This document shows positions 35,108 through 37,812 of a DNA stretch of 64,000 nucleotides, piece after piece. Every line of letters starts with the position of its first letter. Positions within the stretch are counted from its first letter, which is position 1. The notes beneath the pieces were generated by a model that was given only the letters and a program-made list of their open reading frames with translations, was not told where the DNA came from and searched no databases. A program made the position numbers and the translations under genes. Origin of the DNA: Erythrobacter donghaensis (GTDB lineage: Bacteria > Pseudomonadota > Alphaproteobacteria > Sphingomonadales > Sphingomonadaceae); assembly GCF_001557325.1 (NCBI RefSeq), contig NZ_LSJS01000302.1:10832-74831 (forward strand), given 5' to 3'.

Positions 35108-35890
35108 ATGGCAGGACGTGTAGCGGGCAAGATGGCCCTGGTGACGGGCGGCGCGCAGGGCCTCGGCCGCGCGCATTGCATCCGCCTCGCGCAGGAAGGC
35201 GCGCGGGTGCTGGCGACCGACATCAACGGCGCGGGCGCGGAGGAAACCGCCGCGATCATCAATGCAGAACTCGGCGAAGGCACGGCTTTCGGCACGGCGC
35301 ATGACGTGACCAAGCCCGACCAGTGGGAAACCGCGATCGATGCCGCACGCGAGAAGCTCGGCGGCCTCAACGTGCTGGTCAACAATGCCGGGATCGGCGT
35401 TCCGGGCAATATCGAGGCCTGCGACTTCGGCGACTGGCAGCGCTGCTTCGACATCAACGTCAACTCGATCTTCCACGGCTGCCAGAAGGCGCTCCCCCTG
35501 ATGCGCGAGCACGCGCCCGGCTCGATCATCAACATCTCGAGCATCGCCGGGCTGATCGCGAGCGACACCATGCCGGCCTACAACGCCAGCAAGGCGGCGG
35601 TGTGGATGCTCTCGAAGTCGATCGCGCTGCATTGCGCCAAGAAGGGGATGCAGATCCGCTGCAACTCGGTCCACCCGACCTTTGTCGATACGCCCATCCT
35701 GGACGGCACCGCGCGCGCCCATGCGCTCGACAAGGAAGTGCTGATGGAGAAGCTGGCGCGGCAGATCCCGCTGAAGTTCGTCGGCGAGCCCAACGACATC
35801 GCCAACGCGGTGCTCTATCTCGCGAGCGACGAGAGCCGCTTCATGACCGGCGCCGAATTGAAGCTCGATGGCGGCATTTCGGCGATGTAA
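35108..35890 (+). CDS. SDR family oxidoreductase
   Basis: Classical short-chain dehydrogenase of 260 residues. TGGAQGLGRAHCIRL (cofactor loop), ATDIN (NAD-type Asp at the end of beta-2), NNAGIGVPGN, catalytic INISSIAGLI and YNASKAAV, and C-terminal GAELKLDGGISAM. The Asp after beta-2 suggests NAD rather than NADP. Related to 7-alpha-hydroxysteroid/cyclopentanol dehydrogenases, but the substrate is not readable. ATG at 35108, six bases after the Nudix stop. Confidence 0.85.
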   Translation: MAGRVAGKMALVTGGAQGLGRAHCIRLAQEGARVLATDINGAGAEETAAIINAELGEGTAFGTAHDVTKPDQWETAIDAAREKLGGLNVLVNNAGIGVPGNIEACDFGDWQRCFDINVNSIFHGCQKALPLMREHAPGSIINISSIAGLIASDTMPAYNASKAAVWMLSKSIALHCAKKGMQIRCNSVHPTFVDTPILDGTARAHALDKEVLMEKLARQIPLKFVGEPNDIANAVLYLASDESRFMTGAELKLDGGISAM

Positions 35891-35895
35891 AGAGA

Positions 35896-35917
35896 GAGGG
35901 GCCGCAAAGGGCCCCTC
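35896..35917 (+). terminator. Rho-independent terminator after the SDR gene
   Basis: Hairpin GAGGGGCC-N6-GGCCCCTC starting six bases after the SDR stop; located between convergent genes and possibly bidirectional. Confidence 0.7.
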
Positions 35918-35979
35918 CCGGTTGTTCAGATCGGTGTGCAGCGGCCCGAAAACCGGGAACTGCTTTTCAGTCGCTGCAC

Positions 35980-36192
35980 TCAATCGGCGATCAGCGCGAT
36001 CGCAAGGTAGATCAGCACCGGGGCGCCGAAGCCGAGGAGCGTGGCGGCGACGAAGCCGATACGGACCAGCAGCGGGTCGATGTTGAAGTAGTTGCCGATC
36101 CCCGAGCACACGCCGGCGAGCTTGGCATTGCCCTTGTCGAGGCGGAAGCTGCGGCTCGGCGGGGTGCCGCCCGATTTCCTGAGGTCATTCAT
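35980..36192 (-). CDS. pspC: PspC domain protein
   Basis: Protein of 70 residues: a short charged N-terminus (LRKSGGTPPSRSFRLDKGNAK), then LAGVCSGIGNYFNIDPLLVRIGF, the PspC signature, and a hydrophobic C-terminal helix (VAATLLGFGAPVLIYLAIALIA). PspC proteins sense or relay membrane stress; in enterobacteria they belong to the sigma-54/PspF-controlled phage-shock system. Good CAGGAG ribosome-binding site before ATG 36192. It is the third gene behind two tandem small proteins, and a sigma-54-like promoter lies in front of the unit. PspA and PspF are not in the window. Confidence 0.85.
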   Translation of the reverse strand: MNDLRKSGGTPPSRSFRLDKGNAKLAGVCSGIGNYFNIDPLLVRIGFVAATLLGFGAPVLIYLAIALIAD

Positions 36193-36224
36193 CGTGGTCG
36201 AACTCCTGTGAAAGCGTGGGGCGA

Positions 36225-36338
36225 TCAGGCCATCAGCGCCGGGCTGGCGGGGATGATCGCATAGGCGAAGCTGGCAACCGTCAGGATGACAGCGAAAGCG
36301 GCCGAAGCAAAGCGGGCGGTGTTGTCATTGCCGAACAT
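36225..36338 (-). CDS. 37-residue hydrophobic protein, copy 2 of a tandem pair
   Basis: A short frame of 37 residues starting MFGNDNTARFASAAFAV and ending with the shared AIIPASPALMA. It has one predicted transmembrane helix (about residues 11-28) and no recognised family. AAGGAC serves as ribosome-binding site. It is clearly paralogous to the next upstream frame: matching positions include ARF/SRLFA, AFAV/AFSV, FAYAIIPASP and the final alanine. Similar length, same C-terminal motif and tandem position argue that this is translated. Confidence 0.75.
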   Translation of the reverse strand: MFGNDNTARFASAAFAVILTVASFAYAIIPASPALMA

Positions 36339-36377
36339 GGGTCTTGGGTCCTTATACAGAGAGGGTGTTGCGGGCGA

Positions 36378-36491
36378 TCAGGCGACCAGCGAGGGGCTGG
36401 CGGGGATGATCGCGTAGGCGAAGAAGGCTGCCGAGATCACGACCGAGAAGGCGGCGGCGAAGAGGCGGCTCGAGGTTTCGTTGGCGTACAT
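36378..36491 (-). CDS. 37-residue hydrophobic protein, copy 1 of a tandem pair
   Basis: A frame of 37 residues starting MYANETSSRLFAAAFSV, with one predicted transmembrane helix and ending AIIPASPSLVA. CAGGAG ribosome-binding site seven bases before ATG 36491. Paralogous to the frame at 36225-36338: both share FAYAIIPASP and have identical lengths. It is the first gene of the unit with pspC and lies about 50 bp behind a sigma-54-like promoter. No family recognised. Small size means annotation pipelines may miss it. Confidence 0.78.
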   Translation of the reverse strand: MYANETSSRLFAAAFSVVISAAFFAYAIIPASPSLVA

Positions 36492-36544
36492 GTTGGGTCT
36501 CCTGTTGCTGTGTTCCGGGGCTGTCCCGGGGATGCCAGGTACTT

Positions 36545-36560
36545 TGCATCACCCGTGCCA
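36545..36560 (-). promoter_or_regulatory. Sigma-54-like (-24/-12) promoter upstream of the small-protein/pspC unit
   Basis: On the minus strand TGGCACGGGTGATGCA matches the sigma-54 consensus TGGCACG-N4-TTGCA at all positions except one (A for the first T of TTGCA). The GG and GC elements are spaced correctly. It sits 53 bp before the first small-protein start codon. One isolated site in a single sequence is suggestive, not proof. Confidence 0.55.
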
Positions 36561-36723
36561 AACTCGAAAAATGGCCGAATTCCGCCCTTTTCCATCTTTC
36601 GCCCCGCAAACGCCTCGTTAAGCAAAACGAAAGCTTGGGAAAATTTGCCAAGGATTGGGATCGGCGATTTTGCGACCGCCGCACTGGCCAAACCGCCCCC
36701 CTCCCGCTACCCCCGCAAGGGCC

Positions 36724-37812
36724 ATGGGCCTCAGCCGCATCAGCCTCGAAAACTTCCGCAACCACCCCGCGACCTCGCTCGCAGAGACCGCGCATTTCAA
36801 CCTGCTGGTGGGCGAGAACGGGGCGGGCAAGACCAATCTTCTCGAAGCGCTCTCGCTGCTCGGCCCCGGGCGCGGCCTGAGGCGCGCGAACCTCGGCGAT
36901 CTCGCGCGGCGTACCGCGCCAGGCGCTCCGCCCCTCCCCTTCGCCATCGGGGCGAGCCTGACCGAGGCGGGCACGGTCTCGGCGCGGCTCGGCACCTATA
37001 CCGAGGACGGCGCGCCCCAGCGGCGGCTGGTGCGCGTCAACGGCGCCCCCGCGACCGCCGCGAGCCTTGCCGAGTGGCTCGCCCTGTCATGGCTCACCCC
37101 GGCGATGGACGGGCTGTTCACCGACAGCGCGGGCGCGCGGCGGCGGTTCATGGACCGCATGGCCTTGGCCCTCGCCCCCGATCACGCGCGGCGGGTGAAC
37201 GCGCTCGAAGCGGCGCTGCGCGAACGCGGCAAGCTGCTCGAGACCGGCGGCGATCCGCGCTGGCTCGATGCTATCGAGGCGCAGGCGGCCGATCACGGCG
37301 CGGCGGTCGCGCGCGCCCGCGCCGAGCTGGTGCTGCGCCTCGCCGACGAGCTTTCCGCTCTACCGCCGGAGCCCTTCGCGCGGCCCACCCTTACCTACCG
37401 TCCCGGCGGCCCGTCCGACGAGACCGCCCTTCGCGCCGAGCTCGCCCGCGGCCGCCCGCGTGACCGTGCCGCAGGCCGCGCGCTCACGGGGCCTCAACGC
37501 GACGAGCTCGAGGTGCGCATGGCCTCCACCGGCCAGCCTGCCGCCACCTGCTCGACCGGCGAGCAGAAGGCGATGCTGATCGCCATCACGCTGGCCCACG
37601 GCATCCTTGCCGCCGCCGGGCGCCCCTCGGTTCTGCTGCTCGACGAGGTCGCCGCGCATCTTGATCCCGTCCGCCGCGCCGAGCTGTTCCGGCGGCTGCG
37701 CGAGGGCCGCGCGCAGGTGTGGATGACGGGCACCGAACTCGCCCCCTTCGAGGCCCTGCGCGGCGAGGCCGCGGTGTGGCGGGTTTCGGGCGGCGGCGTG
37801 GAGCGGCTTTAG
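36724..37812 (+). CDS. recF: DNA replication and repair protein RecF
   Basis: SMC-like ATPase of 362 residues that loads RecA at gaps. LSRISLENFRNHPATSL leads to Walker A GENGAGKTNLLEAL (about 37-45); near the C-terminus is the signature LTGPQRDELEV, CSTGEQKAMLIAI and Walker B VLLLDEVAAHLD. ATG at 36724 is chosen because the upstream extension is proline-rich noise without homology. Its end overlaps the convergent esterase gene by four bases. Confidence 0.94.
   Translation: MGLSRISLENFRNHPATSLAETAHFNLLVGENGAGKTNLLEALSLLGPGRGLRRANLGDLARRTAPGAPPLPFAIGASLTEAGTVSARLGTYTEDGAPQRRLVRVNGAPATAASLAEWLALSWLTPAMDGLFTDSAGARRRFMDRMALALAPDHARRVNALEAALRERGKLLETGGDPRWLDAIEAQAADHGAAVARARAELVLRLADELSALPPEPFARPTLTYRPGGPSDETALRAELARGRPRDRAAGRALTGPQRDELEVRMASTGQPAATCSTGEQKAMLIAITLAHGILAAAGRPSVLLLDEVAAHLDPVRRAELFRRLREGRAQVWMTGTELAPFEALRGEAAVWRVSGGGVERL

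Follow-up and report, generated by a model that had tools for sequence, protein, structure and literature searches.

A probable PspF/sigma-54-type promoter before two predicted 37-residue membrane proteins and a short PspC in Erythrobacter donghaensis: a probable accessory unit of the phage-shock response

What do two tandem, paralogous frames of 37 codons do directly ahead of a pspC gene, and what switches them on? The question is raised by a locus in a 64,000-nucleotide stretch of an Erythrobacter donghaensis contig (the window, meaning the whole stretch of DNA analysed). Its minus strand, read from 36651 to 35980, carries in order a 17-base dyad (TTGGCAAATTTTCCCAA), the element TGGCACGGGTGATGCA, a hairpin, the two 37-codon frames and a 70-codon gene with a PspC domain. 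A first-pass annotation had placed the two frames at 36378-36491 and 36225-36338 on the minus strand, with ribosome-binding sites, pspC and TGGCACGGGTGATGCA around them, and all of these coordinates check. The frames, here called sm1 and sm2, follow the ribosome-binding sites AGGAGA (36498-36503) and AAGGA (36349-36353) respectively, and the pspC gene (35980-36192) follows AGGAG (36203-36207), all on the minus strand. They were correctly described as paralogous, each being 37 aa long, with 20 of 37 positions identical and FAYAIIPASP in both. Beyond pspC, a G+C-rich hairpin with a TCTCTTT tail (35889-35917, minus strand) was picked out by eye as a possible terminator, where the terminator scan made no call. 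From their open reading frames we take the divergent gene upstream to be recF and the convergent gene downstream to encode a short-chain dehydrogenase.

The sigma-54-like promoter that had been proposed (36545-36560, minus strand; -24/-12 form, GG-N10-GC) is borne out by comparison, although the window alone is non-significant: the sigma-54 pattern occurs there at chance level (3 sites vs 2.1 expected), and the site is significant only through its conservation across relatives. Genome contigs matching a degenerate pattern for FAYAI(I/V)PASP gave 68 stretches, with titles naming Erythrobacter, Porphyrobacter, Qipengyuania, or Erythrobacteraceae, Sphingomonadales and Alphaproteobacteria bins, and together with the window they contain 67 groups, each with one to three small ORFs. 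Three groups (L015, L038 and L048) have no upstream DNA; in 63 of the other 64, the window among them, the exact pattern TTTGGCACN6TGC lies upstream, and the 64th (L021, Qipengyuania aestuarii) has TGGCAT within the full element TGGCATGGCCGTTGCA. A looser sigma-54-like pattern was found in 28 of 29 loci of the wider family, this set being 29 of the best 30 loci from 67 matching genomes (L165 was too short) and including some from Erythrobacter itself. A scan of 35800-36760 for sigma-70-like promoters gave none. The presence of rpoN, on which the proposal of such a promoter depends, was seen in all four genomes of relatives that were searched.

From 62 small-protein promoters, 60 remained after short or N-holding sequences were dropped and 59 after near-identical ones were collapsed. 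Over these 59, mean pairwise identity was 1.0 in the fixed letters of the promoter (selected as such) and 0.56 in its six free bases. Further upstream it was 0.81 in a block adjoining the -24 element (36563-36587, minus strand; GCGGAATTCCGCCATTTTTCGAG- or GCGGAATTCCGCCATTT-like), 0.51 in the interval between this block and the upstream activating sequence (UAS), 0.74 in the UAS and 0.36 in the far flank. On the other side of the promoter, a hairpin (36515-36529, minus strand) lies close to where the mRNA is predicted to begin (+1 at about 36534). Fifty-eight of the 59 predicted leaders fold more stably than their mononucleotide shuffles, with a margin above 1 sd. Support for the hairpin is weaker under the dinucleotide control, which gave z values of -2.0, -2.2, -1.8 and -0.8 for four leaders (window leader, z -1.98).

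The identity of the regulator was approached through the pspA promoters, as in the genomes of all 13 relatives a sigma-54 pattern precedes the PspA domain by 420 to 640 bases. A UAS weight matrix was built from the 13 pspA enhancers, in which the offset is 89 in 12 cases and 90 in one; L112 and L120, taken as pspA promoters by the loose pattern, were removed as no pspA was found there, and UAS scoring omitted both. In the window the matrix picks out TTGGCAAATTTTCCCAA as a putative PspF-type enhancer (36635-36651, minus strand), with a score of 9.87, 89 bases before TTTGGCAC and with p 0.005 against its own dinucleotide shuffles. The motif exceeds the 99% level of dinucleotide shuffles in 54 of the 59 small-protein promoters (five fall below this stricter level) and that of mononucleotide shuffles in 56-57; these counts are not independent events, because the sequences are related and the stretches tested were already anchored on the sigma-54 site. 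In the 29 wider-family loci it was found by pattern in 22, failing in seven. In E. coli, the sites that the matrix scores best in the promoters of pspA (TTAGTGTAATTCGCTAA) and pspG (GTAGTCAAATTCACCAC) beat mononucleotide shuffles (p 0.0145 and p 0.003 respectively) and are, we assume, the published UASs of these two genes. Two UASs at pspA and one at pspG are described in PMC3709507. Within the GTDB family, 274 of the 298 genomes have a PspF match above its cut-off. On this comparison of sequences, the small-protein operon is very probably under PspF/sigma-54 control, and the coupling to phage-shock control put forward in the first-pass annotation finds support in a pspA-type enhancer at the same spacing (offset 89) in 52 of the 59 promoters under the stricter control.

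The third gene resembles known PspC (PF04024/TIGR02978) in its domain, which reaches 64 bits against the Pfam cut-off of 25, but it encodes only 70 aa and falls below the cut-off of the full equivalog TIGR02978 (53.9 of 104 bits). A PspC pattern lies downstream of 49 of the 67 small-ORF groups. At least 12 groups have none within 800 bases; a linked PspC is therefore not universal, and the small proteins can be produced from loci that lack it. Second loci exist with the same kind of small ORFs but without pspC. There are two PspC genes in each of the 13 genomes. The small-protein operon contains one, and in 12 genomes the second is close to pspA; in G001 this second gene is found towards the beginning of another contig. 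The pspA operon itself opens with a hydrophobic ORF of 50-65 aa in all 13 genomes (11 by pattern; L085 and L127 by reading). The idea of a small envelope-stress unit is supported by the comparison, but the unit is wider than was described, given the second loci without pspC and the hydrophobic ORF opening the pspA operon.

This first ORF of the pspA operon (L087, L088, L114 and ten others) mostly ends in -EIA or -ELA, and the one tested matched nothing in Pfam or NCBIfam. In three further genomes the small-protein profile weakly matches the first ORF before pspA (E 8e-5 to 4e-4), whose length is 53 aa in L200 and 54 aa in L204, against 166 aa in L201. There are hints here that the small-protein operon could be derived from the pspA operon, and the PspF-controlled micro-proteins may have relatives leading it. 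In L192 (4444-6002), several ORFs of about 100 aa with a repeated VLERI(V/A)TDRG, perhaps PspB-like, follow pspC in the pspA operon, and a 102-aa ORF between pspA and pspC is read as pspB by its place and length.

We consider the sm1-sm2-pspC operon to be, probably, a PspF/sigma-54-controlled accessory transcription unit of the Psp response. Its regulation is well supported by sequence conservation; the molecular action of the small proteins is inferred, as are their stress induction, topology, interaction with PspC and protective effect. In E. coli, PspA releases PspF on damage to the inner membrane. In Erythrobacter, such damage would likewise free PspF from PspA; PspF would bind the putative UAS at 36651-36635 and activate the sigma-54 polymerase at 36560-36545. 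The resulting mRNA, with a likely stabilising hairpin at its 5' end, would encode sm1, sm2 and the short PspC. The two small proteins would insert as single helices, probably N-in/C-out, so that the conserved A-Y-A-I-I/V-P-A-S-P end lies on the outer side of the inner membrane, and with the short PspC they could act as accessory effectors or signal modulators. That sm1 and sm2 are effectors or partners of PspC has, in our estimate, somewhat less than an even chance. A little more tentative still is the suggestion that in the Erythrobacter lineage a second Psp arm, made of multi-copy PspF-controlled micro-proteins and a dedicated short PspC, serves as a main membrane-level effector or sensor; if true, the PspF targets would far exceed the single extra one of E. 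coli (pspG).

According to PMC3709507, pspG of E. coli and Yersinia encodes a Psp effector in a PspF/sigma-54 transcription unit of its own, apart from pspA, and the operon would resemble it as a separate unit under the same control, away from pspA and with a single UAS at its promoter. PspG differs in having 80 aa against the 37 aa of sm1 and sm2, which are moreover tandem paralogues linked to a short PspC and match no Psp-family Pfam model. PspB and PspD are also small Psp membrane proteins, as is proposed for sm1 and sm2, but neither of their Pfam families is matched. By analogy, sm1 and sm2 may play a part comparable to that of the E. coli proteins PspG or PspB. The role of PspD and PspG is left open in the survey PMC9239133, and through the small-protein family the function of small Psp membrane proteins could be approached directly by genetics. 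E. coli already provides an example of an envelope-stress regulon under PspF and sigma-54; neither the present family of small proteins, with its tandem arrangement, nor its short PspC partner was found in the open-licence literature listed. A PspF-type regulon becomes visible here across an alphaproteobacterial group, and with it an unnamed family of small proteins in up to three copies per operon, with extra loci.

The small proteins had been called unnamed, and neither sm1 nor sm2 matched any Pfam family at E up to 1 (PspB, PspD and PspG included) or any NCBIfam model. The structure predicted for sm1 consists almost entirely of a single helix spanning residues 2-31 (mean pLDDT 80), and the most hydrophobic stretch of 19 residues is 11-29; sm1 and sm2 are each predicted to be single-helix membrane proteins. 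Such features would also suit stress-made, membrane-active peptides whose effect is to reduce the proton motive force or slow down metabolism, with PspC as a safety partner or a bystander, and among the other explanations this one survives best, although we regard it as unlikely. The length, single helix and stress-type promoter liken sm1 and sm2 to TisB and YohP in their features, and a precedent is given by YohP, a small E. coli membrane protein that lowers the proton motive force and raises PspA and PspC, as reported in PMC12719787. Sm1 and sm2, however, contain one arginine each and no lysine, and if they were toxins, carrying several intact paralogues in one genome would come at a high cost. 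Their main conserved feature is the A-x-A-I-x-P end to which the motif relaxes in the wider family, and they differ from TisB and YohP in their probable control by a PspF-type enhancer and sigma-54.

This conserved end suggests a further explanation, in which A-x-A would be a signal-peptidase site. Sm1 and sm2 could be pre-peptides from which cleavage frees a C-terminal signal or ligand of about ten residues (IIPASPSLVA, IIPASPALMA). In 51 diverse members A31 and P34 are invariant and A29 and I32 nearly so, so that A-x-A with a free middle residue is followed by I-I/V-P, and 117 of 127 members have A as their last residue, all of which fits. The predicted helix nevertheless spans the cleavage site, and isoleucine is unusual at +1; we judge the pre-peptide explanation improbable. 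Between sm2 and pspC, some relatives (L156, L157, L121, L132 and others) carry a third small ORF of about 48-54 aa (MYSFF...), and the two of these tested matched no Pfam or NCBIfam family.

The specificity of the enhancer can be judged from other sites with the same promoter pattern. In the 13 relatives, TTTGGCACN6TGC occurs 65 times vs 16 for the reversed control, and by downstream content the 65 sites comprise 17 small-protein operons, 13 pspA operons, 12 sites with a putative non-coding RNA (L076, L080 and L128 were reassigned to these from 'other' on reading), seven flgB-type sites and 16 others, the last being the same number as the reversed-control matches. It could be argued that the sigma-54 site is real but answers to an NtrC-type enhancer-binding protein with no link to envelope stress, since these genomes hold several sigma-54 activators (at least 3-7 PspF-model matches per genome among the genomes listed). 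This is very unlikely, as the enhancer motif and its spacing equal those of pspA and were absent, with either type of shuffle, from all 33 other sigma-54-pattern sites scored (0/7 flgB, 0/12 non-coding RNA and 0/14 other sites). Control by PspF is the reading we retain.

The putative non-coding RNA is a conserved element of about 110 bases after the exact sigma-54 pattern in 12 of the 13 genomes (L075 1501-1640; equivalents in L073, L076, L080, L084, L099, L108, L115, L117, L123, L126 and L128). It consists of a GGTCTTC..GAGG stem-loop, CCTCCCC and a strong terminator-like hairpin, and looks like an unnamed sigma-54-dependent small RNA. In an Rfam search of ten of the 12 loci only tRNAs reached the curated score, with Thr_leader (L075) and Plastid-ycf2 below threshold. 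Membership of the PspF regulon was ruled out for this element because none of its loci has the UAS motif. Flagellar genes resembling flgB were also seen after the same pattern, without the PspF UAS, in L078, L079, L082, L104, L131 and L136. The block adjoining the -24 element was considered as a mark of the small-protein regulon only and rejected: a similar block precedes the pspA and non-coding RNA promoters, and the sequence upstream of flgB in L136 resembles it. For this reason the block is assigned no role.

Whether sm1 and sm2 are genes at all was judged from their substitutions. With the sample limited to pspC-linked groups with 37-aa frames and to pairs differing by 5-35%, in-frame pN/pS was 0.34 for sm1 (33 sequences, 508 pairs) and 0.30 for sm2 (36 sequences, 497 pairs), and it was at least 1.3 in both shifted frames. 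The third codon position has the highest entropy, and the pattern is that of frames under purifying selection. Conservation in relatives, the absence of which would have counted against the twin frames as genes, is seen in the 67 groups. Short ORFs often arise by chance and the leader is conserved, but the alternative in which the small ORFs are spurious and pspC is the sole product is highly improbable in view of the in-frame pN/pS and entropy values, the recognisable ribosome-binding sites in nearly all groups and the retention of the ORFs at loci without pspC.

Of the 298 GTDB-family genomes, 67 were matched by a profile of 41 members (E up to 0.01) and 73 by a broader profile of 51 members (E up to 0.001). 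In a class-wide sample two of 385 genomes matched at E up to 0.0001, both of them also in the family sample; the profile was built from the Erythrobacter-like lineage, and absence elsewhere holds at this sensitivity. A protein motif scan of a viral collection gave no match. In the open-licence literature no paper on these small proteins was found among the matches listed, and none pairing PspF with Sphingomonadales. A profile search of a protein collection returned 1163 matches at E up to 0.01, and among the 120 matches listed six are named 'recombination protein F' and ten 'enoyl-CoA hydratase' by NCBI. Six of these 16 records were read, and all are members of the small-protein family with 37-39 aa. 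The two names are an apparent case of propagated misannotation, and public annotation conceals part of the family under these ill-fitting enzyme names.
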